Source: Paramecium tetraurelia (taxonomy: Eukaryota > Ciliophora > Oligohymenophorea > Peniculida > Parameciidae). From it: DNA of 64,000 bases. The notes beneath the pieces are model-generated. The model was not told the origin of the DNA, did not search any database, and saw only the letters and a list, made by a program, of their open reading frames with translations. Shown piece by piece: positions 16,597 through 47,800 of the stretch. The DNA lies in the NCBI RefSeq assembly GCF_000165425.1, contig NW_001799639.1, positions 154,702 through 218,701 of the forward strand, given 5' to 3'. The first letter of the stretch is position 1; the number at the start of each line of letters is the position of its first letter. The position numbers were made by a program, and so were the translations under genes.

Positions 16597-19583
16597 TCAT
16601 TGATTTTTGATTGTTTCTATTTCAAAGTCTTAATAGATCGTTTCTTGTAAATGTTCAACAATTTCAATCTCTACGTTTTGATCTTTTAAAATTTCACAAT
16701 AAACTCATATGGATAGTACATAAATCTAATAAGTTAATTGATAGGCTTCAAAAGCAAAGCATGAAATTTCTGCTCTGTTTATAATATAATGTTTTCGATA
16801 TTATGATGAACCATGTAAAAACTAAAATTTTTGACAACCTCAAATTACTCAACGCCCTATTATGCTTTAAGTGAAAAGTATAAAATTTAAAGATCCTATA
16901 CTGATCTATCTAAAGGTATTGAAGCACCTTCATTGAAGATTTTATGGTACAATAATTCAATATTCTAATAAATACAATCCTAAATGTCAATCTTTAATGA
17001 TTCATCAGTATCAATCAAAGCAATTTTTGGATTTTATTAATTACACATCTTTTTGTATTTTGATAGTTTTGCACTCATAAACTTATTGGCAGTAAGCATG
17101 CATTATTACCTGGTTGACAATTTCAAATTTTAGATTGAATAATTATCACTTGAAGCAATAGAGTCGTTGATATTTATTTACCTCTAAATTGAAATTGCTT
17201 CTCCACTTTACAAAGAGCATCTAGGTAATTAAATAGATTCCTATCTCTTAAAATGAAATGTCTTATTTATTGGAGACTAGTCATTAATATCAGATTTAGC
17301 CTCGTCAAATTCCTATTCTTGAATCAATTATTTTGATAACTAATTCTAAACTAATTTTGGTTATTCATTTTAAAAGTAAATTGCAAATTATTCTATGATC
17401 TCTCTATCACACCTAGTTGAAAAGGATGTCTTTCCTCTTTTTTTAGATCTCTTATTAAATCTTCTCTGCTAATCTTATGAATATTAATGTCTTTTGATTA
17501 TTAATTCTCTATCAATGCTTATAAATAAGTTTGGACACTCTTTCAAACCATGAGTATTAATATTGCAGGCTGCACAATATTATTCGAATATTAAATTTTT
17601 ACTATTAACTTAAAGAATAAATTAATCTTTTAAATTACAATACTTTTAATAATCTTTGGGGTATTATCTAATTACTGTTGTAAAATCAGACTGAAAATAT
17701 TAATTAATAAATTTACCTTGCTTAAAACAAGTAAACTCACATACCCAATTGCTTTAAAAGTTTAGGCATTATCATTTTCTTCGATGAATTCTGAAACTTC
17801 CAAAAACTATCCTTGATTCTAAACACTCTTCAATGAAACATTAAGAACATTTTGATATTGCAATTAACCCTATTCTACAAAGCACAGATGAGGTTAATAG
17901 ACATCGCTAAGAGTGTAAATGGAGAATGTATTCTAAGGTTGTATTATTTTTCTTTTAATAAAAGGAGATAGGGAATTTTATAACTCCAAACTGAAATTCT
18001 TAAATAGAAAATCACAATGTTTGAAAAATACATTATTAGCTTATTTTTTTAAATCCTATTTCAATTCTTCAGATAGCTCATTTAATAAGGTTTCTTCTTA
18101 TTACAAATCAATCTCTGCTTCCTCCTTCCATCTAAAAGTCAAATATTCCCTAATTCTGTATTGCAAGGAGAAAGGGATATTCCTTTGATGCATATATCTA
18201 TTGATAACTCTAATCTTTCTGCTTCTTTCCATGAAATGCTGATTGATTTCTTTTATTATTGTTCCAATGGCATTAATACTGTAGGAAAACCATAGACAAG
18301 CACTCAGGATAAAGAATATTGCAACAATTTTTTCATTCCAAGTTTTAGGCACATTATCACCATATCCAATAGTGAGCATGGTGACAATGGCAAAATAGAA
18401 GGCTTCTAAATATTAGAGTTGCCATTATTGATGATCTAATTCTTTCAAGGTAATCCAGGAATTACCGTAATTTAATGAACTATTGAAGAACCATATACAA
18501 GAAAACAAGTGAAGTACATAGATCAAGTAGATTAGCAATTTAAATAAATTGATAAATGCTTTTTATTTTTTTGTGAAATATTGAGATTCTTCGCTTTTCT
18601 ATAATGTTTAATTGATTTAAAAGTGCTGCGTAAGTGATATTAAAAGCATTAAATATTAAAATTAATTACCTTAATTATTAATAAAGTAGATTAATAAAAA
18701 TATTAACGCGAAGTCTGACATTGTTTGTAGATTTAGATTATTTTATATTATTTGCCATCTATCATAAACTGCCTATCCACTAGAGTAACAAATGGTATTC
18801 ATTCTTAATACGTTGTCAATAATTAAGATAATGATGATAGTAAGAGTGAGGCCCATCAGTTTGTCAAATAAGATTTGTGGATTGTAGGCAATTTCTAATG
18901 GAATCAATATTAATAGGAGCAACCTAAAAAGAATGGTCCAGTAATCCCAAACGATTTTCTTCAGTGATTCAGGATGTATTTATGGCATTTTGGATAAAAT
19001 TTCATAAATAGTCTTCCTACTTAATTAATATTTTTCTCTTATCCACAGGATGAATGGATGTTCATAGAAGGAGAGTGTATTGTCACGAAACAATTTGGTC
19101 ACATTTCGTATTTGAAAATGCGGATGATTGTTTAGCTTAAGAATTTACATCATCACTTAACTAAATAAAATTGATAATACCTGTCACTCGAATTATCGTT
19201 AATTAATTTGATATGATTTTCATTGACAATAGACAACTTAGTTCTGCTGTTTCTGATGCGTTAAATGAATCGTTTCAGATAAAAATATTTCATGAAATTA
19301 GTGCCTGTCTTTTTGGATGTATTTGTTTTCTTATCTTCATCTTGATTGATTAATGGCTTAGTAATGTGTAAAGTATTACTTCACAATTCCTGCGAGTGTC
19401 TATATTTGTTGTTGATTTAATTGTGAAATTATTTGTACTGGGATTTCTAGTTTTTATTCTTGTTACTAAATCTGCCTCCAAATACTCCTTTTCATATTCA
19501 TTATGATGTTCTGCTTATAATTCAATTTGAAGATTCTCTGGTTATGAATTTAAGGCTGAAAATATTATATTAGTGCCATTCAT
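16597..19583 (-). CDS. Six-TM K+ channel with CNBD-like domain and CCHC zinc-knuckle motif (channel A)
   Basis: About 980 aa. The start MNGTNIIFSALNS is followed by an acidic N-tail (NEYEKEYLEADL) shared with channels D, E and F. Introns 19161-19180 (20 nt) and 19357-19379 (23 nt) are firm; at least one more is unplaced. S1-S6 lie at about 18930-18200, with pore TMLTIGYGDNVPK, the K+ selectivity signature. The C-linker follows (RYMHQRNIPF...LTFRWKEEAE), then a CNBD-like fold (LCFVEQGQLQYQ). The usual FGE...R ligand motif is absent. At 17535-17576 the protein has CAACNINTHGLKEC, an exact C-x2-C-x4-H-x4-C pattern, followed by a basic run. K+ transport is well supported. Cyclic nucleotide binding is doubtful, and the knuckle function is unknown. 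Confidence 0.86.
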
Positions 19584-19599
19584 TTATAAAATTATATAC

Positions 19600-20106
19600 T
19601 CACTTAAAATCTCTTTTTTTCATGTCTTTATTCATATCATTATTCTCTTACTCCCTAAACTTTTTCAATTTCTCCTGTTTGATCATCTCATCATACTCCT
19701 CCTACTCTTTTACAGCCTATTAATAGTTGGCTTCGTAATTGGAATTATCGACTTCTTCTGTTTGCTTCTTTGGTTTCTTTAGTGATCTCAAAAATACAGA
19801 TCCCAAGAAGACAGCCAAAACTGAAATATTAGAAATGCTATTACGTCCACTTATCACAAAATAGGGCAATTATTATTTTGTCTCCTTGTCTTGTATGTAA
19901 GGATCTAATTTGGCTTGCAATTTCAATTCTTCATTCTTTACATAATCTAACTTGTTTATTTTGCCATCCCTATAATAATAAGCCTTCCCATTCTCTTCGT
20001 ATGTTCCAGATTCTCCAACATTTTTTCTTATCCTTTCCCTATCAGCTTCAGTCTGAATAATTTTATTTAGCTTTTTGCTAAATGCAAACTTATTTAATCT
20101 ATTCAT
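19600..20106 (-). CDS. Small single-TM charged protein, ciliate hypothetical
   Basis: 168 aa in one open frame, MNRLNKFAFSKKLNKI... to TGA 19600-19602. The N-terminal half is charged (RIRKNVGESGTYEENGKAYY), with one hydrophobic helix near residues 90-112 (FVISGRNSIS...VFLGSVFL) and a highly charged helical tail of about 55 residues. The N-terminus is basic and amphipathic, so mitochondrial targeting is possible but not shown. It lies 16 bp upstream of channel A in the same orientation. No family is recognised. Confidence 0.7.
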
Positions 20107-20210
20107 ATTTATTAAAATTTAAATTCCTTATATTAGAGAAAATATAAACAACCGCGTAATAAGGTCTAATGGTTTTCCTTGCTTTATAATAAATAATATA
20201 ATATTGTAAT

Positions 20211-21456
20211 ATGTTAACATAAATCAAAGAGAAGCCACTTTCATAACTAATAGTAGAGTTGTAACAGAAATATTAAGAAGAGAATGACCAATCGAATATA
20301 TTCTAGAAACTTTATCAATAATAAGTGGATTTAGAAAGTTCTACAGAATCATCCAATATTGTTCCTGCTCTCTTTTCTGGATCCACAGGTTCTTAGTCCT
20401 CCCACTCACAGGAAGGTATAACACTTCATGTATCAAAGGCGTCGAAAAGAAAATAAAGAAGGCAAGAAAAGGCCAGATTCCTAACAAAACTAATTAGGAT
20501 GATAAAAAGCTTTCGAATGAAACAACAGATAAAAAAACTTTGCAGATGATTCGAAATAGAATATCTGCCTAAAATTCTAGAGATAGGAAGAAGGCCTACC
20601 TCTAAAAATTAGAAGAGGACTTCAATAAATAATCTAATTGTCTCCAGGAATTAACTGAATAAGTTAGTTATTTACAATAACAATTAGAAGAAGTCTAGAA
20701 GCTCAATTCACATTTACAATCCTAGTAATCTAGTCTAATTTGTATTAATTGTGGATGCAAATAATTTGTCCTTGAAGAAGAAGCTCCAATTTCTATTTCT
20801 AAGAATAGAGGTTTGGGCAAATTAGGATTTTCATTTGTGGTTATATTAACTATTTTTGCTTGTTTCACTATTAACTTCGATACTTCAGCTTAGAATTTAC
20901 AATCCATTCCACAAATGTCTAATGAGAAACCCCTCATAAGACATTTGAATAACACTGATCAACAATATGGAATTTTGGAGTAAGTTCAAAATGGAAGAAT
21001 TAAAGGAATAACAGACCTGATGGAATATATAATCAGAATATAATTATAAATTTTATGATACAACCTATCGTGCCATCTTAAATACGAAAGAAAGTTTTGT
21101 CAATGAAATGATCAATTACAATAAGGAAAAAGCCAAATAAACTAATGTTCAGGCATTGGCCCCATTAAACTATCATAAACCATAAGTAGACTCTTTTTAT
21201 TGTCCAACCGTTTATAGATATGACAACCAAACTAAGGAGTAATATTATTCTATAAGTTAGTAAAATATCAGTCAAATACTAGGATGATTAATGGATTCAT
21301 TTGGTTATTCCAAAGAATAATGTCAACATATTTTATTAAAATCATGATAACTCAATAATATTGAAAGAAAACTTTAAAAATTCAGACACTGATATAAAAG
21401 AAAAGTATCAAGAAATTTGGTGTTAAGTAAAAAGTATAAATGACTTCTATGTTTGA
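20211..21456 (+). CDS. Membrane-tethered bZIP transcription factor (ATF6/CREBH-like layout)
   Basis: Starts MLTQIKEKPLSQ; introns 20416-20438 (23 nt) and 21239-21260 (22 nt) are firm. The order is an acidic/Ser-rich N-terminus, a Lys-rich stretch, a bZIP basic region with the invariant spacing (IRNRISAQNSRDRKKAY), a leucine-zipper helix (LEEDFNKQSNCLQELTEQV...), a Cys pair (CINCGC), one transmembrane helix (LGFSFVVILTIFACFTINF) and a lumenal tail of about 170 residues. The tail contains RHLN just after the membrane, a match to the site-1 protease pattern R-x-L-x, plus N-x-T sites. By analogy with ATF6/CREBH, the factor would sit in the ER and be released by proteolysis. An intron of 26 or 35 nt from about 20989 and one apparent missing T near 21055 are needed to join the lumenal part. 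Confidence 0.8.
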
Positions 21457-21553
21457 AAAATTAACTCATTAATTTTGTTATATAGTAATGTTAATAATTT
21501 CATTATAAATATTAATATTTTAAAACATTTAGTCAAACCAAGTAAATTTAAGT

Positions 21554-24178
21554 TCAATCCCCTATTTTAACCTACAATAGCTCATTTTTAATGTCTGCAA
21601 TCAGACAATCAATCTCATATTCTTATTAATTGATTTCAAATTTAGCCATCGATAAAGACGTTTATAGATTAACTAATTTTTTTAATTATTAACTTAAATT
21701 TTGTATTTAATCTCCCATAGCTCCACATTTTTTAATGCTTTCAAGTTTCTGTTTTTGTTTCCTTCTCTCTTCTTACTTTTCATTCTTAGCATTTTCATAG
21801 ATTATTTAATGAAATTTGTTGTAAAATATATCAATCTTATTATTCTTAAATTCCTTCTTTTGAAATTTTAAAATATTTCTAATAATATGAATTAATTTTT
21901 TTCTTGAGAGTCTTTCAGTTGATTCTTGTTTACTCTTTAACAGAAAAGCCTTGATTAAGTTTTCATCCTCTCGAACCTTTTCAAAGTTTTTCAATAATTT
22001 TTATCCCACTTTTTTCTAAATTACTTTCTCCCAAGTACAATCTTTGATCCTATTATTTATCAAATTACGAATTATCTTATAATCTGGATCATGTAAGGAA
22101 ATTCTCCTAATTTTTGATGATCTTTAAACATAATATCTTATTTTATTTATGGCCTATATGATATAGTTTATATACATTGATAAGCTTCTCTCTAATAATT
22201 TTATTTCTAGCTTATTTTTATCCTACAATTTAGAGCATTAAATCTTATTAGACACTTGGATACTCTCGTAAATCAATTTTAAATCGTAGTTCCTCGAGAT
22301 GCTAAGTAGATTCTCTTTTCATATTAGATTGATGACCATCATTAATAGCAGATCCTCTCTTCAATTTTTATTGTTTTTCTAGTATGATAAGAGATTTGAT
22401 TACATCTTTTAATTCTTGCTTATTCAATAATAAGTATCTTCCTTCTTTTATACATCTATTGCAACTCAAAAAACTAAGGCGACTCTTTTTCAAGGAATTA
22501 AGAAAAGTTATCAGATGAACACATTAAAACAACACTTTCTTGTATAGCATGAGCACTCCAACGTCTTAAACTGCTTTCAATGCATTCGATTTCTCCAAAG
22601 CAAGTACCTTCCATAACTCTAACTAAGGTTTCCCCATTATTGTCACACAATCTAATGTCTCCTTTAATAAGAAAGAAGAAATCATTTGCACTTTGACCAA
22701 TGTGATAGACAGTTTCATATTTTTAATAGCAGACCAAAGTGCTAAAAGGCAGAATGGACCCTGAGAAATTGATATCATTCGACATGAAGGGAATAGTTCT
22801 CAAAATATCCTTATGGACTGCAGCAACAGTATATAATGCTAATTGATGAGGAAGTTCTGAAATGATTCTTTTAGATTCCTCTGCCCAGAAGGGATTTCTT
22901 TAGATGTTAAACTTCGTAAATCTGATCCAATCATTCTAAATTCTTTCAGACATATTTATAGTAATGTCTTCCAAATTCAACAATTAATCATCAAACTCCT
23001 GATTGGGATTTGATTAGATCAATATAAAAGTAATGTTACCAATAGTGAAGGAATAATAACCAACACCAATTAACATCCAAATTACACTAAGTAGATATTC
23101 ATCAAAATTATGAGCCTCAAGATCACCATATCCAATAACTGTAATTGTTTAATAGGCCCAAAAGAATGCATCTATCAATTTAGTGTAATCGTTAGCATTT
23201 TTAATATCTTATCGTTCCATCCAATTTTAATTAACATTAAATTTGCATATCCATATCCAAAGACAGGCGAATAAGTGATTCAAAATGATCATCTCCAAAA
23301 ATATTTTCATTAACTTCTTTATTCTTAAATCCAAATTGTACTCATCTCTTACTATTAACTCATCTCTTAGAGACTGTTACTTTTTAAGCAACTCTATTGA
23401 TTGGTTGTATTCAACTCTCCTTTCATAGAAAAAAAACCTTAATAACCGTAATAATTTTATAGGTTTCAAACTGTCTAAATCTAAATCAGGCAATATCGAT
23501 AGTAGATCAATGACGAACCAAGTGGTGATGTAATAATTAGCTATATCCTTCAGATTATGCAATAAATCTAATTGCTTGTTAATGTGGCAAATAATAAAAT
23601 TCATCAATAAATCAACCCAAAAGATCATCTGTAAGATGAATGTCAATTGATGGCCAAATCCCTCTATTATAGCTGTAAAAATGTACTTCATATTCAAAGG
23701 CGACTTGTATTGGATATAGAATGGCAGCTACATCAGTACATAAATTGATTCCCAATCCCCAAACTAAATATACGATATCATCAGGGAAAAATGGAAGGAA
23801 ACCTCTCTTGCGATATTAATATTTAGATCTTTAATTCTTTAATTGATATGCATAATTTCGAAGTTAATTTATAAATTTTTGAGCCATCCCAACCTTTTTA
23901 ATTATCTTTCTTAATTCTTGGTTTTTGGTCACTCTCGATTCTTGAAGTTGAGACATGGTTAAGCTTGTCATTTAAATACTAAATGTCACAGATTTATCTT
24001 ACAAATTTTTTACAGTTTTAGCTCTAATTATTCTTTTAGAGGGTTCGATTTGTTTTAATAAAACACTATTTGATTGTAATATGCCGATCTGAGATCCCAT
24101 GTCAGTTAATTATCTTTGACTGCTCCAATTTTGTTACTGGAACTGTTCTTCCTTTATGCGTAAAGGATAGACTTACAT
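21554..24178 (-). CDS. Voltage-gated K+ channel with intact CNBD (channel B)
   Basis: About 860 aa. N-terminus MQVYPLRIKEEQ..., then a cytosolic helix, S1-S6 at about 23800-23050, and S4 with repeated basic residues (PIKLLRLLRFFFYERR). The pore is TVIGYGDLEAHNFDE, where V replaces the usual T-I, followed by S6 (IWMLIGVGYYSFTIGN). The CNBD at about 22750-22500 keeps FGEIECIESSLRRWSA, i.e. the Glu and Arg of the phosphate-binding cassette, so cAMP or cGMP binding is plausible. The C-terminus is charged and helical, ending LLQVKIGD. One or two short introns in the N-terminal part are not resolved, because the frame changes between about 23960 and 23880. It belongs to the CNG/HCN/EAG superfamily but not to the zinc-knuckle subfamily. 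Confidence 0.85.
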
Positions 24179-24331
24179 TTATTTTGTATTAAAGAAAAAT
24201 AATTAGAATAAATGTAAAATAAGTTATCATAATTAAACAATATTTTATTTTAAGAATGGAAGTTAAGTTGTTGTATTTTATTGTTATTTTTGTTTGAGAA
24301 ATTAGTGGAAAAATAAGGACATAAAAATACA

Positions 24332-27274
24332 TCAATTTGACCTAGGACTATAGAGGCTTGGTTTTATTTTAGACTTACTAATAATGCTTTAAAGATGATC
24401 GGATCTTGATACCTTTTTTGGCTTTTTGAGTTTTTATAGAACCTTATCCAGATTGGAGTTAGTGAAGTAATAAGTAGTTATAAAATATCTATCTAATTCA
24501 AAATCAACTCTTTGCTATTTGTTCTCACCTTACTTATGAGAGAGGACCTCATCCAATTAATTAACAACATTACTGGCAACAATTTCCAATTTAGATTAAG
24601 TTTTATATTACATTTCTTAATCAAAGTTTGTAAATGAATTAGAATTATTATTATTCTTTCTTAATCTTTGCACAATTGAGTTTTAGTGAGAACCAGATTG
24701 ATTTTGATAATGTTGTTCAGAACTAATTATAGAAATATTAGTGAATCTATTATTGGAGAGTTGGGTTAATCTCTTAAAAGTCCTTTGTCTATTGTCTGCT
24801 TTTCTTTTGAATGAGTTTTATGCTCTTAAATTTTTAGGTTCAGGTTCAGAAACATCAGAAAACTTAACTTTCTTTTGCTCTATGCTTTATAACTGAATAT
24901 AACGAGATGATTTTTGAATTTTGGATTAACTTAATACTCCATCAGGATCTTCACCATTTTCTGAAGATTCACCATCCATTTACTCCAAACCTGTTAATCC
25001 TCTTATTAAGGATTTACTAGATTTTTGAGTCTTTATTGATTTAAGTATTCGTTCACCTTCATCATCATCCATATTAAATCCTAACATATTTAAGTATTGA
25101 TCGGTTAAATCATCAATTGCAACCATATTCTCATTTACAATCAAAGCTAATGCATGTTCCCTTATTATATTTCTTTCATGATTTTTCTTATCGGACCTCC
25201 TTTTATGATATAATCTATCCATATCTTCTGTTATCATAAATTTCTTTCTTATTCTATCCTAATTAAAATGAACAAACACTAATGGACATCTAAATAAAAT
25301 AATCAATTTACTTTTTAAATTAGTGTGTCCATTTACATATGTAACAAACTTCGCCATAGTTTTATTTTTCCTCTGTAAATAACATCTAATCTCTCAACAT
25401 ACAATAATTTTCTTCCTCTAATGAATCTTCTCTAATAATCCTTAAAAAATCATCATAACTAGAATATTCTTTTAATTAATTACTTTACAAAGGCAATTTG
25501 ACAAAACTTAACCGATCTAATTGTATATTCATATCTTGCTTATGTAATAAACTCCTTTTCTCCAACAAACTTTCCCTTATCTATTTTTGTCAAAGTAGTT
25601 TCCCTTAATTTTTGATCACCTAATGAACTAAGAACATATAGATACATATCAGACTTAATTCACCTCTTTATAGGAAAATTAATTTATTGGCTTATTCATT
25701 TTAATTAGCAACAATCTCTTCTGGAGGGACTTTAATTTCATGTACATATGAACATAATTTATGCACACTCTTTAAGGATAAAGTCTATCTGATGAGTCTT
25801 GACTTTTTTAGCATTTCACAATACATATCTATTGCGACTTATTCTTTTAATTTCTTATCAAGATTGCTCATCATTTTTTCACCAAATTCATTATACTGTT
25901 ATTCCATTTTTAGATAATATTCAAAATATTTTCTAACTTGCAACATCAACTACTTATTTATTTTCTTCTTTTTTAAAAAGCTATTGATATGCATCATTTA
26001 CTATTTAAATTGTTATTCTTTCTCAGTAAATTATTTTAAAATATTGCCAATACTAGATATAGTATAACCAAACAATCCACAAATTACCATTGCCATTATT
26101 ATAACATATATTCTTTCTAGATCTGTCTGAGGAACAATATCACCATAGCCGATAGTCAAAGTTGTTATTGTACTAAAATAAAAGGCATGGATGTATTTAG
26201 TCGACCAATTGGCTTCTGTTATATCTTTGGCAACTAACCAAGAATTTAATCCTGATTCTAATTCATTTTCTCCAATCAGATTCCACAAACAGGCACAAAA
26301 ATGGGATACAAAGGAAACTAAGAAAATTGATTTGAATAGTTCTAAAAGTGTTTAAATATTATTTGAAGGATTTGTAACTTCTTCGATTGATTCAATCATC
26401 GATTTAACTTTTGTCACTCTGAGTAGTAAGATATATTCTGTGTAAGGTACTGAATAGGAAGATAAGATAAATGGTATTACAATCATTAAATCCCAGGCAA
26501 AATTTGTGTTTACATAGTGTTTAAGTATTTATTGCTTATCTCTATGTATTTATCCTTAACTATAATAGGCGGTGAAGAATGTCAAAACTATATCCAATAC
26601 AAATGTCAAAGAAGGCAAGGTTTCCAAGAATATGCTTGTCAATAAATCTTCCCTTTCAAAGTCAAACCCTAATTTCATGGGGATATAGAAAATATTAATG
26701 ATTATTTGGGTTAAAACAAATATATCCCAAAGCACCTTTATGACAGAATCAGGATCAAGTACTGGTACTTAATTTATAAACCATTTAAAAGATTACATTA
26801 CTTATTCAACTTTATTTAATTTGTGAAGTAAAATATCAGCATCACTAGCAGAGTCTGATATCAAATTGAGAATGTTGTTGGTTAAAGATTTGAACTTTAC
26901 TTCTGTTGAATAGGTTTTCATTTGCTTACTAAATTTGGTTATATAAAACATAATCCTTAATCCCCCATGAACCCATAAATTAACTTTTTATTTTGTTTCA
27001 ATTTGTAGTATAGCTAAACTGTCATCGTCATCATCAGGATCAGGACTCAAACAATCACCTTTAAAAGACTATTTTTCTGGCTGTTACAATTCGATTTTTC
27101 TATTGGAAGTAAAGTTAGGCTCAAAGGATGCGTCTTCGCTATTGTTATCAGATTGCGGGATGCCATAGTCTTAACGGAATTTCAAAATTCCTTTTACAGT
27201 TTGACTCTTAATAATAAAGCTACTTACTTCCTTTATCGTTATTGCCGTAAAACCGAATCTAACAATTATGACAT
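24332..27274 (-). CDS. Voltage-gated K+ channel, EAG/HCN-like (channel C)
   Basis: About 970 aa. The likely start is MSQLLDS at 27274, followed by a 23-nt intron with an unusual GTTT donor; this is the least certain part. After an acidic N-tail (DPDPDDDDDS), S1-S6 span about 26780-26040: S1 IFVLTQIIINIFYIP, S4-like YILLLRVTKVKSMIE, pore TTLTIGYGDIVPQ, S6 MAMVICGLFGYTISSIGN. A C-linker rich in Lys/Glu follows, then a divergent CNBD region and a long low-complexity C-terminus rich in Asn, Ser, Lys and Gln (to SLYSPRSN at the stop). No CCHC knuckle was seen. K+ selectivity is supported by the pore; gating by voltage or ligand is inferred from family only. Confidence 0.83.
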
Positions 27275-27689: not shown

Positions 27690-30600
27690 ATGTAAAAAAT
27701 TGAACAGAATCATAAATTCAATATTGATTTGGATTTAGAACTCAGAGCTGTACAAAATTATGACTTCGAACAAGAATATTTAGATCATTGTCTAAGAGAT
27801 ACTCATAGATAATTATCAATCAATAACAATCACCATATTCACAGTCAAACAAAAAGTGAAAAAAGCAATGATGGCTACGATTTCAGAACACCAAAGGTAA
27901 CATCCCAAACTAATCTGAATAATATTATCACTTCCGAGGTGTAATAAAATCATGCCATTGCACCTAAGTATGTAAAATAAGAAAAACCAATCAGCACAGG
28001 TTCTAGTATAATGCAATTCTTTTTTATAAGACGTTTTTTGGAAAAACTTACCTTTTAAAGAAAAAGATTGTAGAATTTGAACATTACTCATTTAAATCTT
28101 ATAGATGATAAGGCCTCAGACAAGTAAAAATATTATTTATAATTTTGTAGAGCCAGTTTGCTAGCTTATAAATAAACAAAAGTTCAAAAAGGATTGACCA
28201 TTAATTAGCTAAATAGACTTGTGCAAACGAAAATAGAAATAAAAGAAAGGAAATGGGAGAGTGTGAAGAAAAATTTAGAAGAGAGTAAGTAAAAATTTAT
28301 CAGACAAATTACAAATATTGCCAATAAAATACCTCTAGTACAACCTGAAAACGATTTTAAACTTTATTGGGACATTTTTGCTTCACTATTTAGAGTGATA
28401 CTCGTAGTTCTAGTGCCTTTGGAAATTTCTTTTCACACTTAGATTCTCTTTTAGAATTATGTAGGGCTGACATTAACAATACTATTCATCTTGCAATTGG
28501 ATCTATTTATTAGGATCAACACTCTCTGTTATGAAAATGGAAAGGCTATAACAGATCGATGGGGAATCATAATTCGTTAGCTAACTAAGTCTTGGTTTAC
28601 AGATTGCTCATTAATAATAATAATAGTGGTTTTTATATTCAACTCGAACGCCCAAGATGGTTATGATTTGTTTTTACTCATTTTGTTAACCCAATATAAG
28701 CATATTTATGGGGCTTTATCAAAAACGGATTAGATCTCCTACTTTACAAGACCATAGAGAGGAATAATAGGATTAATCAAATTTATAACTAGTTTATTTT
28801 ATATTATGCACATATTCAGTTGCATTTGGTTTTGGTTCAGTAGCATTGACAAATCTAATTCGTGGATTGTAACTAAAGACTTAGATGGGTAGACTTGGCA
28901 ACTCTAATATTTAGAATCAATTTACTTTGCAATTGTGACAATGTTAACTATAGGATATGGAGACAATGTGCCTAAAAATTCAATAGAGAAAATTGTTACA
29001 ATAATATTTATATTGGGTGCTTGTAAGTTATTAAATTAAATTTATAAGGTTTGTGGTTCTCATACAGTGTAAATTTTATAGGGGCAATCATGAATGACAT
29101 CACGCAGAATTAAGTGGAGAGAAGTCAAAAGATGAGAGTCATCAATAAATACATGACATAAAGACAGATTCCATATAGTCTGTAGCATCAGTAATTTTGC
29201 TATTAATAATTCACTTAGAGTCAAAGAATACCTAACGTATAGATGGAAAGAGGATGATGAGGTTGATTTGCAAGTGGAGTAGATCTTGTTGGAGTAATTA
29301 TCTGATGAACTAAAGGAAGAGCTGGAGAAACAAGCCTATAAAGTATTTATCCAAAAGTCAGAGTTATTGTAAAAACAATTTTCCTTGGAATTCCGAAATG
29401 CTCTATTTAAATCAATTAAGCGTAAGATTATAGAACCATAACATACTTTTTAAAGTGAAATCAATGGTCAATAACACCTTTGTTTCGTTGAATAAGGTGT
29501 TTTGCTATATCAACATAAGGATAGAAAACAAAGATCCAAAATGAATGCTTCAGTTCATTAAGGGCAATTCTTTTGTGTGAAGGAATTTCTTATGCAAACC
29601 CCAGAATATGAAATCTTCAAAGCTCAAAGTTATGTCAGTTTGCTTGTGTTATCAAAACAAGATTTCTTAGAAACATTGCAAGATTTCCCAGAGGATTTCC
29701 AAAAGTACTGCTAATTAAAGGATTCATATTCATCAGAAAATGAAGGCTGTCAAATTCAATTTGGTAGTTTCTGTCCTGCTTGCAATAATTTTGATCATTC
29801 TTTAAAGAGTTGCTGTTAAATATAATTGGTTCTGAATAAAGAAGTCATAGTTAAAAAATATTAGATGAATCAAGAGTAATAAAGAGTATCCTATTTACGT
29901 CAGACTCTTGATAAACCAATCTAAACTAGAGCGGAAATGTAATATGTTTAGGAATGCGCAATCTACTTTTAAGCAGAGAATCAAAACCTAATCAATGAAT
30001 AATTAAAATTGCAAATAGTTTATGACTAAGAAACAGAATCTTAGTAAGGAAACGTGGAAACACAGAATGCATTAGATCCTATTAACTCAGTTAATATCTT
30101 TTAGATTAATGAGATGTACTAAAGTACTCACAAACCTATATTGAACAAGGCAATTTAAAAAGTAGAATTTGAAGAGGAAAAACATAAAGAAAAAATTGAA
30201 AATCACAAACCCAATTCTTTATTGACTCAAAGCTAAAGAATAAATAGAAAGGGAACATTGTTCTCAAAATAACTTTAAAGAAAAAACACTAAGTCCCCTT
30301 CAATATTATTCTCAATGAATGAAATTACAGAAGAAATTATTGAAACTACCTTAATAGAGTAGGAGAGTGACCATATCAAAAATATCAACAACTTTAACTT
30401 TTATATGAAAGAGAATATCAAATCTCTGTATACTAAAATTTAAAGGTTTTCAGAGGATAAATCCGCTTCTATCAACTAGGGTTTAAATTCACTTCAATAT
30501 ATTTATTGGAAATATAATGCAATCACTCTTGAGGGATTTGAATCCTTATTTAATTATGATTATTATTTTCCACAATCAAATTCCATTACCACAATAGAAA

Positions 30601-30914
30601 TGGCCAATAAAAATCAACATGCTTGGCAAAAAGAAATCTTAAGCAAATTCTCAAAATATTTATATTACCCTTATTAATTTATAAATAAATTCTTGAAGCT
30701 CAAAAAAGTTTAATATTAAAGTGCTGCTATAAATGCAGCTACCAAATTCAAAAATGCTCAAAAAAAAATTTGGCTAATTCAGTTAAGAAATAACTTATCT
30801 TCCAAAAAATTGATACCATCTTTTAAAAATATTAAATTAACGAAGTCAAAGTTAAATTCGATCGTACCATATCCTGGAGATAGTATGCAATCTATTTAAA
30901 TTAGCTAAGGCTGA
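27690..30914 (+). CDS. Six-TM K+ channel with degenerate CNBD and CCHC zinc-knuckle motif (channel D)
   Basis: 1047 aa after removing introns 28124-28150 (27 nt), 29023-29048 (26 nt) and 29191-29218 (28 nt); the spliced length divides by three. The N-tail FEQEYLDHCLRDTHRQ is conserved in channels E and F. S1-S6 lie at about 28360-29080, with pore TMLTIGYGDNVPKNS. The S4 position (LLTQYKHIYGALSKTDQISY) has few basic residues. The C-linker is followed by a CNBD-like domain (LCFVEQGVLLYQHKDRKQRS) with GQFFCVKEFLMQ where FGE...R is expected. At 29772-29813 comes CPACNNFDHSLKSC (C-x2-C-x4-H-x4-C), then a Gln/Asn-rich tail of about 350 residues. This copy is inverted relative to its three paralogues. 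The 27-nt intron has no TGA, so retention would only add nine residues. Confidence 0.88.
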
Positions 30915-31300: not shown

Positions 31301-31317
31301 TTTCTATTCAATTACTT

Positions 31318-34334: not shown

Positions 34335-34540
34335 AATGAAAAATAATTTAAATCTTTATTTTAAATTAAAAAAAAAGAGTATAAAATTTATATAAATAAA
34401 TATGTATATCAAAACAATCTATAAACACTAATTTCTAAACCACAATGCTCTAAGTTTATTTGATAATAGTATGAATGTAATATAAATACTTGATTTGATT
34501 ATATAATTAATTTTAGTATACTCAATATAATGTATTTAGT

Positions 34541-37791: not shown

Positions 37792-37986
37792 TAATATTGG
37801 CAAATTTATAGTTATAAATTATAAATTCAATCAAAACACTGAAGTAAAATGATGACTTTATATATAAATATAAATTAAACAATTTCTGTTTAACTAAATG
37901 AGATTAATATCTTTATAATTCAATTATGAAGATTATGAATAGTGACAAAATTTATAAATATTTTTAACGAATAGAATATTAAAATT

Positions 37987-38731
37987 ATGCCTCAAGAGTC
38001 TATAGAAATATAAATGTTAAAACAACAAGTTTAGTTATTACAATAAGAACTTCAATAAATTCATTAATATGGCAATATACGCATACTCTGGAATAATATA
38101 TTCTCAAAGTTAGAAACCATCACATTTACATCTCAACAACCTCTCAAAATCTATTAGCAGTTGATGTTTCGACAAAGCTTATCTCAAGATCAAATCAAAC
38201 TAGAGAATCTCACCTAAGATGCCGAATGTCAGACTGAAGATGATTAAATTAAATTTTCAAGACACAATCAAATCCTGCATTTCATCAATTAAAATTGAAT
38301 TGAAACTGCAATAAGACAAGTATCTCCAGGAGAATTTCAATTAAATCGAACTCTGTTTAGATAATATTCAAAACTACTCAAAACAAAAGTCGATCAAATC
38401 AAAACAAAAATTAAGATCATCCATTAATTCATCTCTCTCTATACCAACTACTATCATTAACTTATCCATTAAAGAAAGCTATCTTCCAAAACCTATATGC
38501 AATTTAGAATAAGAGGTCAAGGTATGATTACAATATAAGTCTGAGGACTCTCAAATTAATAATCTAAAATAATAGATCCAAGCACTGAAGTAGGATATTT
38601 CAAATCTATAATTAATTAATAATCAATTAAGCAAGGAAGCCAAATTAAAACTCTTGAATTTCATGGTATTGAATAAACAGCAACAAAAAATTGAAATGAG
38701 AAAGATAATTTGTGATAATTTTAAAATATGA
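37987..38731 (+). CDS. Gln-rich coiled-coil protein with an 18-nt intron candidate
   Basis: 230 aa. MPQESIEIQMLKQQVQLLQQ opens a Gln-rich helix, and later segments (ENFNQIELCLDNIQNY, LKQQIQALKQDISNLQ) are also coiled coil. Two splices are required: one of 34 nt starting near 38229, and 18 nt at 38522-38539 (gtatgattacaatataag). Both flanks of the latter are in the same frame and a TGA lies inside. The result divides by three. It converges on the dUTPase gene with 17 bp between the stops. No family is recognised. Confidence 0.65.
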
Positions 38732-38748
38732 TAACTATTTTATATGCA

Positions 38749-39468
38749 TCATTCTTCAATCAAATTATGTAACTATTAGATTATTATTTATTCATTCTTT
38801 CCCTCATTCTTTTTAAATAATTCATACACTTTCTTGTCTCCTTTCATTGTAATCTCACCCAATTGCTGTTTTTATTTACTATTAATATGTCCATTTGAAA
38901 ACAAACTGTATAAATCCAAAATGGTCAATTCTTACCAAGGCTCTGGTTGATCATGATTCAATTGTTGAATATTTTATAATTTCTATTTTAATTGTTGAGA
39001 TTAATTGTTAGTATTTTAAATTAGTTTGACTCCAGTTGATCCAAACCCTCCCTCTCCTCTTTGAGTTTCAGTCAGATTATCAGTTTCTTAAATATCAGTT
39101 TGAACAACATATTCAATGACCATTTAAGCAATTCTATCTCCGTAATTTACTTTGAAATCGTTGTCTCCGAAATTAAATAATAACACACATATTTCTCCTC
39201 TGTAATCTTCATCAATTACACCAGCCCCAACATCTATAAAATTTTTGGCTGCCAATCCAGAACGTGGAGCTGTAATCATAAGAACATACATACCTATTCT
39301 ACCATAAGTGCCTTCAAGTAAGGCCATTGAGATTCCGGTTTTAATTACTTGTTTTCCTTTTGCAGGTACAACGGAATCCTCAGCACTAAATAGATCATAG
39401 CCAGCTGCTTTGAGGGATCCCTTTTTGGGGAGGATGGCTTTCTCGACTAATCTTTTCACATAGATCAT
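38749..39468 (-). CDS. DUT: dUTP diphosphatase with C-terminal extension
   Basis: 231 aa after a 24-nt intron (39270-39293), which has no TGA; removing it restores GRIAPRSG. It hydrolyses dUTP to dUMP and PPi, preventing uracil incorporation into DNA. All five trimeric dUTPase motifs are present in order: [34 protein letters not shown] (with the catalytic Asp), a motif 4 around GDRIAQIVIEYV, and [10 protein letters not shown] near residue 140. The protein continues for about 80 residues past motif 5. That Gln-rich linker is followed by [20 protein letters not shown] and a Lys-rich end, which is unusual for the family. Confidence 0.95.
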
Positions 39469-39562
39469 TTTATTTAAATTATTTATTTAAAGCGCGGCTA
39501 GATGTATTATAATTAATAGTCATACCTGTTATAAATATTCTTTAGTTTTACTAATCAGCTTA

Positions 39563-39633
39563 GGTCGTATGGTGTAGTGGTTAGCACCTTGGACTTTGAA
39601 TCCAGTGACCCAGGTTCGAGTCCTGGTATGACC
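39563..39633 (+). tRNA. tRNA-Gln, anticodon TTG (UUG)
   Basis: 71 nt, intronless. The acceptor stem GGTCGTA pairs with TATGACC with one G-T wobble. The D arm contains GTGTAGTGGTTAGCAC. The anticodon loop CTTTGAA holds TTG, and the T arm is CCAGG-TTCGAGT-CCTGG. It reads CAA. It is the standard glutamine tRNA and not one of the two extra ciliate tRNAs (anticodons UUA and CUA) needed for TAA and TAG. CCA is not encoded. A and B box sequences look normal. Confidence 0.95.
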
Positions 39634-39638
39634 TAAAC

Positions 39639-39643
39639 TTTTT
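39639..39643 (+). terminator. Pol III T-run terminator of tRNA-Gln
   Basis: Five T residues begin five bases after the tRNA 3' end, as expected for RNA polymerase III release. Confidence 0.6.
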
Positions 39644-39734
39644 AATTTTTAATTAATTTATTTTAATTTTTGAACATCGTAATAAATTTGAATTTAAACA
39701 AATTAATATATCGTGTTATTTATTATAAAACCCA

Positions 39735-41157
39735 TCATTTCTACTTTTGTTAGAATTCTGGAAGGATATCTTCTTCTGATGAAGACAGCCTTTGATTTTT
39801 GTTTCCACTTGTTTCTCCCCCTATAGAACCATTGCTACTGATGGATGAGAAAATTTAAGTTTGGCAGTATTGCAAATATAATTTGAATGAAACATTTGGA
39901 AATATCTTGTCATAATTATCAAATAGGATTTTCAGAAATTTCAGCTAAAGTTTAATTTATTCAATTGATTATGTCTAATTTACCTAAACTCTCATGAAAC
40001 AAGGAGCAAATAAAATTGCCAAATTATTCATATTCATTCGATTGAACTCAGAATAATTCCCTACACAAATTAAAAAGTTGACCATTACGATCAGCAACTA
40101 TTTATTTAAATTGGGTAATTAATCAAATACTTCTTTTAATAAATCAATCTCTGTTTGGGGAGTTGTTTCTAATTATGTTTTAATAGCAACTTACATTCGA
40201 TATGCTCACAGATCCATTTGTAAATGTGTTCAGGAATCAACGGATCAGGTAACTCTAGAAAAAACCTCTTTATGAGACTACAGATTATCCGCACATCTTC
40301 TACAATCTTCAAACATTCATAGTTCTCATTAATTAACTGTTGTTATAGTTAGTCTTCTTCAGTTATTAAACCTTATTTTCTAAAAATATCTGGTATCAAA
40401 AATCTATCTTAATTGACTACAAAGTAGGACAACAAATGATCAATTACTACAGGGATTTGGAATTGATTTAACTTTTAGCTATTCAAAGATGAACCAAAGG
40501 AAGATGATGATTATTTTATTAATTGAACTGGTTCGATTTGTTCGAAGCTCTAAATTTATTTTGGGAATGTATTCATCCAACTGCCTTAAAAATTTGGTAT
40601 CTATAATAGTTCCTTTACTCTTAAAATGAATTTAAGATTACTCGTATATATATTTAGTTTTCTTATACAAAATTTTCTCTCTCCTTGATCTCTATCGTTA
40701 GATCAATAGGTTTGCTTTTATTTTAAAGCTTGGTTGATATATATAAAAGCACTTTAATTAAATGTAATATTTGCTTGGGAGCTACCTCATTAACTTTCGA
40801 AATCTGATCAACTATGATAGTCCATCATGCTATGACATTATATATACAATAGTATATGTACTAATAAAATATTGTGATTTAATACTTCTGATCTATTTTA
40901 TTGTCTATACAGTTTATTGTGTAATACATGATCTTATTGTTATCAAAGCTGTTCTACATACTACCATTAAATAAAAAGCACACATTTTATTGTTCGAAAC
41001 CTAAATACAAATCCAAAATACCTTAATTTTGTATAAAATTGCTTTTTTCAATATCAGACAAATTTGTGTATTTGGCAATTTATAATTTTTATTAATAATC
41101 CTAGTCCAATTTGGGCTAATATTTTTTAAGGGCCTTTTGAATATCCTTAATTTTCAT
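39735..41157 (-). CDS. RhoGAP-domain protein
   Basis: About 455 aa. It starts MKIKDIQKALKKYQPKLD. An N-terminal region of about 200 residues, without a recognised domain, precedes a RhoGAP domain. That domain holds IPVVIDHLLSYF, the arginine-finger segment IPDIFRKQG, ICSLIKRFFLELPDPLIP and NMNNLAILFAPCFMR. It would stimulate GTP hydrolysis by Rho/Rac-type GTPases and so affect actin or phagocytosis. Intron 40169-40194 (26 nt) inside the domain is firm. A second intron of about 33-36 nt around 40810-40850, which covers a TGA, joins the N-terminal part; its exact ends are uncertain and one more short intron is probably missing. The C-terminus is Ser/acidic (RLSSSEEDILPEF). Confidence 0.85.
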
Positions 41158-41654
41158 ATATCTCTATTATTTGTTTAATTTACTAATATATTATAAATGA
41201 TTAATTATTCCTCTCATATCCATATCCCGTATGGAATAATTTCATGCATTTCCTTCACAATATCTTTTTTAATTAATCTATTAGATACACAAACAATATA
41301 ATAATATTTCACAAAATTTCATCCTCTATTTTATAATTATTTTTCTCATTAAATCTAATCATACTGAGGTAATCAATACAAATATCGTAATTATTACTCG
41401 CAATTTAGACATCAAAATGATTCCATTACCGTAAGAAAAGAAATCTTTATTATAATTTTAATTGTAACGTTATTTATTTCTAATTACAAAAATACAATCT
41501 GATAGTAGGTATTTTATAATTTAAGATAGTTTTGAATAATCAAATCCATTCAACATTAGATATATACAATCAACCATAAAAATATACTAAATTTAAATAA
41601 TTTTATTATTAATAATAATTAACAAACTTATTGATAGATTACGAATTAACAATA
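41158..41654. other. 497-bp AT-rich intergenic region
   Basis: Lies between two minus-strand genes: 5' of the RhoGAP gene and 3' of channel E. I found no coding frame, RNA gene or repeat in it. It should contain the RhoGAP promoter and the channel E 3' end. Confidence 0.4.
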
Positions 41655-44600
41655 TCATTATTTTTTTTACAATTTACAATTTTTAATTTAAACTTCTGGA
41701 AGCACCTTGTTTCTTTTAAGCTGACTTTTTGTAACTCTTAAAAGCATCATCTTGTGTCTCACTCTTTATATGGATTCAAATTTATTTATTATAGAAACAT
41801 ATGCTTTCGTTCTTTTATGTTTCAAAAATTTAAGGATAAATTAAAACGGATAAAACATGAACATTTAAAGTCTATTTAGAATTAATTGTTGCCAATTCTA
41901 CTTATTTTTATTAATCTGCTCTATTATTGAAGTGATATTATGCGAAGGGAAATAATAATCATAGTGATAAATGGAGTCTAAATTTGGTTCAGATTCATAA
42001 TACAATTGAATGTAAAGATAAGTGATTTCCTTTATTTGTTTAACAAGTTATGGGTCATCAATATACTTTTGCATCTTATTATAGATTATTTTGATGTTCT
42101 CTGCATGGACTTATTCAAATTCCTTAATTTAATTTCTATATTCCTCAACTTCATTGCTGATAATTGTTTCACCAGGATAAGATTCAATTGAAGGTTCATT
42201 TAGATTAGATAATAAAGACGGACTCTTTGTATTCTATCTCAAGAATTTATGGTCATAAATAGACCCTGATTTATAGATTCTTTTGGAATTATATTTTTAA
42301 GTGAATTTACTTTGCTTTTCTATTCTAACATCAGATTAGATTTCTAAATCGATACATTTAACTGCTCTCTGATGACCTGAAGTAACAAGAAATTCTTCAG
42401 TAACTGGAAACACTTTCACGGAAGGTAATTAATCTTCATTGCCCAGAAATACTATATTAGGTTCAAGATCCTAATCCACAATATTTTAGCACTTTTATTG
42501 ATTCTGAATGAGTTAAGGATTATCCAAAGCAAAGATCCTAGCACATTCTTAAACAAACAACATTTCTGCTCTGGTCATTATTGGTTTTTCAATAGTTCTA
42601 CGTTTATGATACTTTCTCTCTTAATATTAATTGTAGGCATGTCTCTTAAGCACTAATTCTTTATTGGGAATCAATTGCACTTAAGGACATTGATTTAATT
42701 GATGATCAATTTTATTACAGACAGGACAAAATTGACCTTCCTTGATTAATTATTAATCCAAATTAAGAATTAATTAATCTCTCAATTAACAATACTTTTG
42801 AAAATCTTCTGGGAAATCTCTTAATGTTTCCAGGAAGTCAGATTTTGATAGCATTAATAAACTGACATATCCAGCTGCTTTGAATAATTCTTTTTCTTGA
42901 CTATGGAGTAAAAACTCTTTGACACATATAAATCTTCCATGACTAATGTGAGAATTAATCTTCGATCTTTGTTTTCCATCAGAGTGTTAATACAATAGAA
43001 TTCCTTATTCAATGTAACATAAATGATATTCTCCATCAAATTCAATTGAAAATGTATTTTAAGGTTGTATAATTTTTCTTTTTATTGATTTAAAGAGAGC
43101 ATTTCGAAATTCAGCACTGAAGTACTTCTGCAAAAACTCACATTTCAAGTTGAATATTTTATATGCCTATTTATCTAATTCTTCTTTTAATTCATCTGAC
43201 AATTATCCTAGCAATGCCTATTCCATTTCCAAATCTATCTCATCATCTTCTTTCCATCGATAAGTCAAGTATTCCTTTATTCTAATATTTAATTAATAAT
43301 ATCAATTACTAATATTATAATGCATAAGGGATCTCACGTTCTCTCATATACTTGTTTATCACTCTCATCTTTTTGTTTCTCTCGACTTAATTTTGAGTGA
43401 TATCATCAATAATGCCTCCAATAAAGTTTACACTATAAGAAAACCACAAGCAAGCACACAAAATAAAAATGATTGTGACTATTTTCTCTATTTAATTTTG
43501 AGGCACATTGTCTCCATATCCGATTGTTAGCATTGTAACTATTGCAAAGTAAAAGGCTTCCAAATACTATGATGACCATCTAAGATTCCCTAATCTCTTA
43601 GAGATAATCCAGGAATCCTCATCATCTATACTGCTGAACCAAAACCATATACAACTGAATAAATGAGCTATATAAATTAAAGATAGCAAAAACTTTAGCA
43701 ATCCTATTCTACCTCTTTAGGGTCTTGTGAGATATGAGATTTAATCCACTTTTAGAAAAGATTCATAGACATATTTGAGTTAACTTAAAAGTAGGATCAA
43801 AATTAAATCATAATTTCCTGAAGGCATGTAAGTATTGACTAGCAGAATAATGGTTATGCCTTGATCTATTAGAGTGGATCTATTAGTTTGCAACTTGATT
43901 ATTTCCCAACGGTCTTATATTGCTTTGCCTGTTTTGTAGGTGATAGTGTTGATATTTACAATATAATCCAATTATAATATTATAAATAGTAGTGTTGAAA
44001 ATATCCGATCTTCAGATACCAAAATTTTTGAATGAAATGAAATTTCCAACGGTACCAAAAACACCAATATCCCTCTCATGAATGTAACAAAAAAGTCCCA
44101 ATACATCTTAAACTTACTTTCTGGCTGAATCAATGGTATACAAGAGAGTAACAACAATAACTGCTTAAATAATGAAGTTTATATTTATTGAAGAGTTTCC
44201 TTCAATTCCTCAAATGCTCGTTTTTTAATAATTTATTTGGTCAATATTCTTTATACTGAAATAAATGAAAGTTCTTTGCGCTTGAACTACTTGGCATAGG
44301 CAATCACATTTGAACTATGTAAATTTTAAACTTTACTTTTCTGAGGCTTTATCACTTATTAAATTTAAAATACTCTCATTTAATGTCTCCAATTATCGTC
44401 TTTTTTATCCAACTTTTTCTAAGAACCGTCTTATGAAAAAAAAAGTCATAAGACTTGAACCTGTATCTTTGGAGGATCTATTGATTTGAGTCGGCAGCTC
44501 TGATAATGAAATCACATCGTTTTAGAGAAAATCTTGTTCAGGTTTAGGAGTGTATGTTATATCAGGAGTTTTATCTGTTCTACTCATAGAAAACATTCCA

Positions 44601-44737
44601 TTTTGAAAAACACTGCTAGGTCGTGATTCTTTGAGACAATATTCTAAGTACTATTGTTCAAAGTCTTCGTTTTACTCTGCCCTTAACTCCCTATCTAAGC
44701 TGTTACTATAATTATCTTCGGGTTTCAGATTTTTCAT
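41655..44737 (-). CDS. Six-TM K+ channel with degenerate CNBD and CCHC zinc-knuckle motif (channel E)
   Basis: 1010 aa after introns 43282-43309 (28 nt) and 44315-44336 (22 nt); the spliced length divides by three. N-tail EDFEQQYLEYCLKESR, S1 YWDFFVTFMRGILVFLVP, pore TMLTIGYGDNVPQNQ, S6 LWFSYSVNFIGG. The C-linker (RRIKEYLTYRWKEDDEID type) leads to a CNBD-like domain (LCYIEQGILLYQHSDGKQRS), where HGRFICVKEFLL replaces the FGE cassette. At 42687-42728 it has CPVCNKIDHQLNQC, exactly C-x2-C-x4-H-x4-C, then a basic stretch (LKRHAYNQYQERKYHKRR) and a long helical tail. Unlike channels D and F, it has no intron before LWFSYS. It is closest to channel F, its upstream neighbour in the same orientation. 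Confidence 0.88.
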
Positions 44738-44899
44738 TAAAATTAAATCAATTAAATTAACAATCCTTTACAAGATAATAATTTTTAATTTTGAAGCATA
44801 ATTGTTGCCCAAAAATAATAATAATAAATACTCTCAACCAAATTTGTAGAAAATATATAAATATATATAAAAATCAATTATTACAATTTAAATTTGGGT

Positions 44900-47800
44900 T
44901 CATATTTCTGGAACTATTTACCCTAATTTCTAAATTGGTTTGACTATCACTGATTTCTTTTTCAATTTCAAACTATTTTTCAAAGTTTTCAGTCTATTAT
45001 TCAATCTCTTGGAAGAGTCATGTTTTATTTTTTGAGGATTGATCACATTCCTTTTTTTATTGAGGTATTTTTAAATAAAAACAAATGGATAAAGCATATA
45101 TTTTTGTAATTTTTCAAGAAATAGTAATTACCAATTCGAATTATTATTATGACTATGTTTTATGATTTCATTAAAATTATCATTTTTAAAGAAACAATCA
45201 TACGATGTCATAACTTCAAAGTCATACAATCTCTGCTAATTAAATTACCAATAAAGAGGTTCGATCTAAAAGTAAGCCTTCTAAATAGTTTGATCGTTTT
45301 CATTGAGTTCCAATTCCCTCTAAAGTTGATGGTATAAATTGGTTATATTCTCTATCATATTATCATTGAAATCTGAAACTGTCAATCCATTCTTTTCCTG
45401 TTTCTCTTCTTTGTTCTCACTATCATCACTACTATTACTACTCTCCTCACTCTCCTTTCCTTCCTTGATATAGTCTGGCTAACAAAGAAGCATCCCCTTT
45501 GGACTTCTCCCCAATCCTGAAGATATATTTAAATTAAATATTGATTATTTTCTATTTTACAATGCTTGATGGAGATTGGACCTAACACCATTTATTTTTG
45601 GAGTACTAGACCCTTAACTTTGTGGTTCACTTATAATTCTCTTTGATTTTGATACTGCTGCTTAAAACCTGCCATCATTCTGAACTTTAAAGCAAGCACT
45701 ATTCTCAGCACTTGAACTCATTGATTCTTATTCATAAACTAATTGAATTTTTTATTATTCTTAAATCAAATTAATATTTTCAGTTTAGAATACCTGAGCA
45801 AATTACTAAATCAAATCCTTCTCAAATCTTGCTCTTCTTATAGTTTAATCACTTTAAAATCTCTTAGAGTTTTCTCTACTTTGATATTTCCGTTTCTATT
45901 CTCCTGGTAACAAATACTTTTTTAAGATAACTTCCCTATCAGGAATGTATTAAATTTGAGGACAACTTTTCAAGTTATGATTAAATAACAGACAAGCTGG
46001 ACAAAATACTCCATTCTCTATTTAAGGAGGATAGAGATTTAAATTCATTTATTCTTTTAATTCACAAAACTTTTAGAAGTCCTCAGGGTAATTCTTTATT
46101 GTGTCCATAAAATCCTTTTTAGAAAGTATTAACAAACTGACATAGCCGTTAGATTTGAAGAACTCAATATTTGGACTTTGAATTATAAATTCTCTCACAC
46201 AAAAAAACTATTCTTGCTGTATTTAGGAATTCATTTTTGATCTTTGCTTTCTATCAGGATGTTAATAAAGTAAAATTCCCTATTCTACAAAACACAAATG
46301 TTATTAACCATCAAAATCAATTGAAAATGTGTTTTGTGGTGGAATAATTTTTCTTTTGATTGACTTTGATAGAGCATCCTTAAAATCCTCTCCAAAATTT
46401 GAAAGAAATGCTGATTTCTTAATAAATATTTTGTGCACTTCCTTATCCAATTCTTCCTTAAGTTCATCAGACAACTATTCTAATAGAGTTTATTCAATCT
46501 CCAGATCAACTTCATCATCTTCTTTCCATCTGAATGTCAAATACTCTTTTATTCTAAAAATGAAAGTACTCATTACTTGTGTTTCATATTAAATGGAATC
46601 CTTCTTTGATCCATATATTTATTGATAACTCTCATTTTTCTATTTCTCTCAACTTAATTTTAAGTGATATCGTTGATTATTCCTCCAATGAAATTGACGC
46701 TATAAGAGAACCACAAACCTACGATATTATTGTGATTATTACATGCCCCTAAGATGAAGATTATCGTCACAATCTTCTCTATAGAGTTTTTTGGAACATT
46801 GTCTCCATACCCAATTGTTAACATAGTAACTACTGCAAAATACAACGCTTCCAAGTATTACAACTCCCATGATTTCAGATCTAAACCATTAAATCTTATC
46901 CAAGAATCCTCCATACTTATTTGACTAAACCAAAACCAAATACAACTAAAAAGATGGAGAATAAACAATAATGTCAATATAAATTTTATCAAGCCTATTA
47001 CTCCTCTTAAGGGTCTTGTTAAATAAGAAATTTGATCACTCTTAGCAAAAGTCTCGTAAATATATTTATATTAAGCTAAAACAACAAGTAAAAATAAATT
47101 AATTTTGTTATTGATTTCTGGTACAATCATAAAAATTATAAGCACAAATGATGTAGAAAAATCGGTCAAAAATTCCTATTTCAATTGATATATCAATAAA
47201 TCCCATCTATTTTGAATTGCAGCTCCATTCCTATATGATAAAGTGTTTATTCTTATGAGAAAGTCAATCTGCAGAATTACAATGATTAAAGCAGTCAAAT
47301 ATATATAATGCAGAAACAATATCCCAGGTTCAAATGCTATTTCCAATGGAATGAGCAATACTAAAATAATTCTAAAAAAAGAAGCAAAGAAGTCCCAAAT
47401 CATTTTAAAACGTGATTCCGGTTATATTATTGGAATCTTGTTTACTACAGTAGTAATTAGATCGAAACAGTTTTTCTTGATTATTTTAACTCTCGATTTC
47501 ATCTATTCAAGGATACTTTTATTCCTAATTCCAGTATCTTTCCTAAGGAAAGCCTTCATTCTGCCTAAAGACGATCCTTGCTTTTTGCATTGATGTTAGT
47601 AATTGAATAAATTTTACCTACTTATAATAATTTATACATATCAGCAGCTCTATCTTCTATCAAATTAAAATGGATCTCATTCATACTCAATATTCTCTTC
47701 CTACTTTAAGAAATTTTTTCAATGAATCTCCTAATATAAAAACTGCACATCAAACTAGTCCCTGTAGGAACGCTTCCCCTTCTTTCATTATGTTAGCAAA

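Follow-up and report, generated by a model that had tools for sequence, protein, structure and literature searches.

Is the C-x2-C-x4-H-x4-C (CCHC) motif that recurs in a cluster of predicted K+ channel genes of Paramecium tetraurelia a true zinc knuckle and, if so, what might it do on an ion channel? The question was raised by a 64,000-nucleotide stretch of DNA (the window; assembly GCF_000165425.1, contig NW_001799639.1, positions 154,702 to 218,701, forward strand), in which an earlier note had reported four such channels. The comparisons described below indicate that the motif is very probably a genuine zf-CCHC knuckle, located at the end of the C-helix of the cyclic nucleotide-binding domain (CNBD), and that it probably predates the split between Paramecium and Tetrahymena.

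Translation with NCBI table 6, in which TAA and TAG encode Gln, recovered all four exact motifs of the earlier note (Table 1). These were the only C..C....H....C matches in the six-frame translation of the window (127,996 positions), while residue shuffles yielded a mean of 0.02 and a maximum of 1 (200 shuffles), numbers on which a chance origin of the knuckles was rejected. According to splice-aware gene models, each motif-bearing reading frame lies inside a K+ channel gene of approximately 1000 codons with a TIGYGD filter, as had been claimed for the pores. The gene models changed two other points. The window encodes five rather than four knuckle channels, the knuckle of the fifth (24332-27274), a C-x2-C-x3-H-x4-C variant (x3), being hidden by an intron; and the motif follows the CNBD at a distance of approximately 30 rather than 100 residues (in gene 27690-30914 it starts at residue 677, with the Pfam CNBD match ending around residue 646). 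All five channels showed the TIGYGD filter and hydrophobic peaks. A sixth CNBD channel (21554-24178), in whose gene model no CCHC knuckle was found, has kept the Glu and Arg of the cyclic-nucleotide cassette and provides a natural contrast.

For the two knuckle channels whose Pfam scan covered the pore, Ion_trans_2 matches reached 44.1 (gene 27690-30914) and 57.9 bits (cut-off 22.5). The CNBD family (cNMP_binding, cut-off 27.5 bits) was passed by 21554-24178 and by 24332-27274, in whose first 699 residues Ion_trans, Ion_trans_2, and cNMP_binding were all above their cut-offs; three other knuckle channels scored 25.6 (gene 27690-30914), 12.5, and 13.6 bits for the CNBD. Gene 16524-19583 gave no CNBD match, the scanned exon covering only the end of this domain. 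Two window exons scanned against NCBIfam matched none of its families. Most predicted introns measured 22-29 bases (72 of 80), in models from a simple, purpose-written gene finder whose own scoring favours introns near 25 bases.

The joining of a CCHC signature to K+ channels, noted earlier for the window, was found to be family-wide. In the genome searched (a 69-Mb, 231-contig assembly with the window on contig C220), 72 channel homologues were read, including the six of the window; 68 carried the knuckle (63 exact, five x3) and four had none. When the CNBD of gene 27690-30914 together with its motif served as query, 124 places were identified. The 40 regions read from the top of this list contained 46 knuckle-bearing channel gene models, with exact spacing in all 46. 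Six of these models lacked the filter because they were cut short; in one of the six, L025, the gene finder had separated the pore half from the knuckle half, and this pore half was the sole model in the 40 regions with a filter but without a knuckle. Since this query contained the motif, a second test was based on PF07885 pore matches followed by a Pfam CNBD match but without a match to the module, which comprises C-helix, knuckle, and tail (n = 10). The knuckle was present at seven of these places (six exact, one x3) and absent from three, the mutually near-copy loci L054, L056, and L057. All 10 places read at the weak end of the module search carried it (seven exact, three x3). Loci L001-L008 were dropped as repeats of other loci. 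A knuckle in every CNBD channel was thereby ruled out, as it is missing from 21554-24178, L054, L056, and L057.

The family is larger than the 72 members read, since the 81-residue module of L041, used as query, identified at least 150 places in the genome; with L049, a member with an intact cassette, 112 places were found at E 1e-6 or better. The module, CNBD, and pore scans of the genome each scored at least 150 candidates. A module match lay downstream of 68 of the 150 pore matches listed, which is a lower bound because the remaining 82 include at least 12 channels in which the knuckle was read by other means (window genes 27690-30914 and 24332-27274, and L010, L014, L022, L049-L053, L055, and L058). 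No relative was found on the viral contigs scanned, and a genome-contig scan with a pore segment yielded 17 bacterial loci. The x3 form was observed in L050, L063, L065, L068, and the window (25286-25346); it may have arisen more than once, since by eye L065 and L068 have flanks unlike those of the others.

Of 51 modules, 32 were chosen for spread and aligned. Only the four ligands C, C, H, and C and one Lys formed invariant columns, and Asp3, Gln64, and Arg66 reached 90%. The ligand columns were thus kept among paralogues; in the wider exact set, the Lys was found in 53 of the 63 members. Spacing between C-helix and knuckle was variable, and the 24 residues after the last Cys aligned without gaps, a combination that suits a compact unit and departs from the simple divergence of the flanks described in the earlier note. 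The 63-row set was picked by the exact pattern, so that ligand invariance within it holds by construction; fair tests are the 32-module alignment, the 46 gene models, and the reads of module-less and weak-match places. Synonymous codons varied at all four ligand sites (TGT/TGC and CAT/CAC, 50 exact models), and ratios of nonsynonymous to synonymous changes (pN/pS) for six gene pairs were 0.087-0.191 over whole genes and 0.044-0.182 over the module; synonymous sites were almost saturated in these pairs. Although the window copies, taken alone, score below Pfam cut-offs, as would be expected of Cys and His residues present by chance or inherited without a metal role, such an explanation is extremely improbable in view of the shuffled mean, the codon variation, and this purifying selection. 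A retroelement remnant was also ruled out, the motif lying inside channel genes under purifying selection.

Assignment to zf-CCHC (PF00098, gathering cut-off 20.8 bits) rests on the family and not on the four window knuckles, which are divergent and below this cut-off. Among 19 genome peptides, scored as knuckle-only fragments of 35-54 residues, L060 (21.6 bits) and L058 (21.7 bits) exceeded it; in longer stretches, L058 fell to 19.0 bits and L049 scored 17.8 bits, while a Tetrahymena stretch reached 28.4 bits. AlphaFold2, with the window's four sequences as input, produced two low-confidence models without a readable metal site, to which Foldseek and VIA-align added nothing.

A profile search of the PDB with the module retrieved chain C of entry 7W5Z (7w5z_C, 1.5e-11), followed by TUT7 (2.9e-5), TUT4 (3.4e-5), HIV nucleocapsid (NC; 0.002), and AIR2 (0.0023). 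The top non-channel matches are thus knuckles of RNA-acting proteins, among them also Lin28, and would suit binding of nucleic acid, for example RNA at the cytosolic side of the channel. In classical knuckles, however, an aromatic residue at position 2 and a Gly before the His contact bases. The channel knuckle is single, and among its 63 exact members position 2 was aromatic in 34 and Pro in 11, with Gly before the His in seven; the absence of this Gly, stated in the earlier note, therefore holds for most members but not for those seven. Variation at base-contact positions speaks for a role in folding or protein contact over conserved RNA binding, which is very unlikely and the least likely of the candidate roles.

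Some CCHC knuckles bind proteins, for example in AIR2. The conserved, gap-free tail of the channel knuckle carries a mean net charge of +2.7 over 25 residues (63 exact members), and together with the knuckle it could offer a surface for docking of a partner protein involved in ciliary trafficking, the cytoskeleton, or phosphorylation by a kinase. Such docking nevertheless appears unlikely, as no partner is known and, apart from the ligands, the residues of the knuckle differ widely from paralogue to paralogue.

Evidence for the age of the knuckle came from 7W5Z, a Tetrahymena thermophila complex IV entry according to PMC10263302 and PMC10227065. Its chain C is named 'Cyclic nucleotide-binding domain protein' (1471 residues; organism taken from the entry). 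The alignment of a whole member, L041, with this chain (query residues 47-583; E 1.3e-59) begins ahead of the first membrane segment and extends beyond the knuckle. Like the Paramecium channels, this protein has a membrane part, a TVGYGD pore, a C-linker, a CNBD, and a knuckle, CYNCKKIGHISSSC, at the matching place, so that the channel-CNBD-CCHC order sought by the earlier note in other ciliates is present in a second one. In contrast to the window's four, its cassette (FGEISFF...RKASAR) is intact and its canonical knuckle exceeds the Pfam cut-off. This K+ channel-like chain is listed in a respiratory complex, and its sequence was found in that one PDB entry only; it may be either a real subunit of the complex or a mis-assigned name.

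Retention of the cyclic-nucleotide cassette was scored, by alignment with HCN1 as reference, from the Glu and Arg that hold the cyclic phosphate. Both were absent from 50 of 57 exact-knuckle rows (in six of these 50, an Arg stands one column further on), both were present in four (L049, L053, L058, and Tetrahymena), and one was kept in three. All four exact-knuckle channels of the window lack both residues; 24332-27274 has kept the Glu but not the Arg. Both x3 rows scored have kept the Glu. The knuckle, retained where the cassette was lost, has thus outlived it. In a tree of the CNBD (63 rows; knuckle excluded; L057 and L059-L068 left out), 59 knuckle rows, including Tetrahymena, were separated from HCN1, 21554-24178, L054, and L056 by a branch with a Shimodaira-Hasegawa-like approximate likelihood ratio test (SH-aLRT) support of 90. 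Two x3 rows were sisters in this tree, and the x3 forms L063, L065, and L068 lie outside it. The tree is most simply read as a single gain of the knuckle before the split from Tetrahymena, although it is short and quick and long branches meet in it, which calls for caution.

Loss of the cassette invites the idea that the knuckle acts as a Zn2+ or redox sensor, in which release of the metal or oxidation of Cys residues would alter gating in place of the lost cyclic-nucleotide input. The ligands are indeed kept in the 50 exact-knuckle rows without Glu and Arg, and Kv4 channels have a redox-sensitive zinc site in their T1 domain. However, the four cassette-intact rows also carry the knuckle, which therefore did not arise as a replacement, and CCHC knuckles usually bind Zn2+ tightly; a sensor is accordingly rather improbable. 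A broader version, in which a very large set of ciliate K+ channels exchanged cyclic-nucleotide gating for control through the zinc knuckle (by zinc, redox, or a bound partner), is more doubtful still; the metal module, fixed to the C-helix, would then serve as the readout of a CNBD with a dead pocket. Coexistence with an intact cassette in four rows ruled out the knuckle as a replacement for cyclic-nucleotide binding.

The chances appear about even for the full reading, in which a true zinc knuckle, already present in the ancestor of these ciliate channels, acts on the gating domain structurally or through protein contacts. One Zn2+ would be held by the three Cys and the His, and knuckle and gap-free 24-residue tail would together cap the end of the C-helix, locked in place by the metal. 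In HCN and CNG channels, this helix closes on the ligand and moves upon binding. A role of the cap in stabilising the cytosolic gating ring or in contacts between subunits is plausible, if slightly short of probable. Where binding was lost, the gating domain would keep its architecture, with or without ligand. The proposed cap fits the observations because the place of the knuckle is fixed, its ligands are more conserved than its other residues, and it persists after loss of the cassette.

Table 1. Predicted K+ channel genes and knuckles in the window.
Feature	Positions	Strand	Details	Basis
K+ channel gene, predicted 996 aa	16524-19583	-	introns 19357-19379, 19161-19180, 17691-17716; filter TIGYGD 18356-18373	splice-aware gene model
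CCHC knuckle CAACNINTHGLKEC	17535-17576	-	module with C-helix and tail 17463-17660	translation
Sixth CNBD channel	21554-24178	-	filter VIGYGD 23122-23139	gene model and Pfam
Fifth K+ channel gene, predicted 948 aa	24332-27274	-	four introns; filter 26139-26156	gene model
Variant knuckle CYICKWTHQFKKC, C-x2-C-x3-H-x4-C	25286-25346	-	split by predicted 22-base intron 25290-25311	gene model
K+ channel gene, predicted 1056 aa	27690-30914	+	introns 29023-29048, 29191-29218; filter 28947-28964	gene model
CCHC knuckle CPACNNFDHSLKSC	29772-29813	+	module 29688-29885	translation
K+ channel gene, predicted 1010 aa	41655-44737	-	introns 44315-44336, 43282-43309; filter 43510-43527	gene model
CCHC knuckle CPVCNKIDHQLNQC	42687-42728	-	module 42615-42812	translation
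K+ channel gene, model 1033 aa	44900-48044	-	introns 47618-47637, 46554-46576; further in-frame 24-base intron by eye, 46719-46742, retained in model; filter 46801-46818	gene model
CCHC knuckle CPACLLFNHNLKSC	45962-46003	-	module 45890-46087	translation

The six K+ channel genes of the window lie within approximately 31 kb (16524-48044). Four matches on contig C30 (123871 -, 129778 -, 132909 +, 151916 -) and three on contig C167 (136126 -, 140842 -, 145321 +) agree with window channels in kind, order, and strand, with 129778 and 140842 assigned as counterparts from order and strand only; near copies in shared order on these contigs are as expected from whole-genome duplication. The window channels end in a long tail (e.g., residues ~880-1000 of gene 27690-30914). 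Close to its C-terminus lies a stretch rich in Tyr and Phe, which by eye recurs in paralogues, and in the scanned exons these tails gave no Pfam match above cut-off. Elsewhere in the window, the predicted proteins of 4841-6949, 7202-8314, 9577-11172, and 60915-63162 (all -) resemble, by eye, histidine kinases with receiver domains.

The earlier note considered the motif the best candidate for an undescribed system; it is instead a domain found throughout a family of channels that are of a known kind, and channel family and knuckle are each already known. Haynes et al. (2003) reportedly described a Paramecium K+ channel (PAK) gene family. For P. tetraurelia, PMC3283738 reports several hundred genes for K+ channel subunits, among which CNBD types, to which the window channels also belong, are abundant. 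The word zinc has 0 occurrences in the accessible parts of PMC3283738, PMC3556005, PMC8208649, PMC8535419, and PMC8964087, and no discussion of a channel-knuckle fusion was found in the accessible open-licence literature, a coverage outside which Haynes et al. (2003) falls. Databases may already show the channel-zf-CCHC pair, because some members pass the Pfam cut-off.

HCN, CNG, KCNH, and plant AKT/SKOR channels share with the Paramecium channels the order of membrane part, C-linker, and CNBD (phmmer E 6.5e-24 to HCN1), but among the best 60 of 98 matches all alignments except that to 7w5z_C ended before the knuckle. With retroviral NC, Lin28, AIR2, and TUT4/7, the channel knuckle shares the C-x2-C-x4-H-x4-C spacing, a Pro after the last Cys (46 of 63), and profile similarity; in contrast to PF00098 proteins, it is present in single copy, on an ion channel, and without the base-contact residues being kept. 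The T1 domain of Kv channels, which is also cytosolic, has a zinc site built from conserved Cys and His residues, but this site is N-terminal, is formed between subunits, and differs in fold and spacing.

A domain familiar chiefly from RNA-binding proteins is here fused to an ion channel. Its presence in 68 of the 72 CNBD-type homologues read, also where the cassette was lost, makes this putative metal-site module a concrete, mutable handle on the gating or assembly of these channels.

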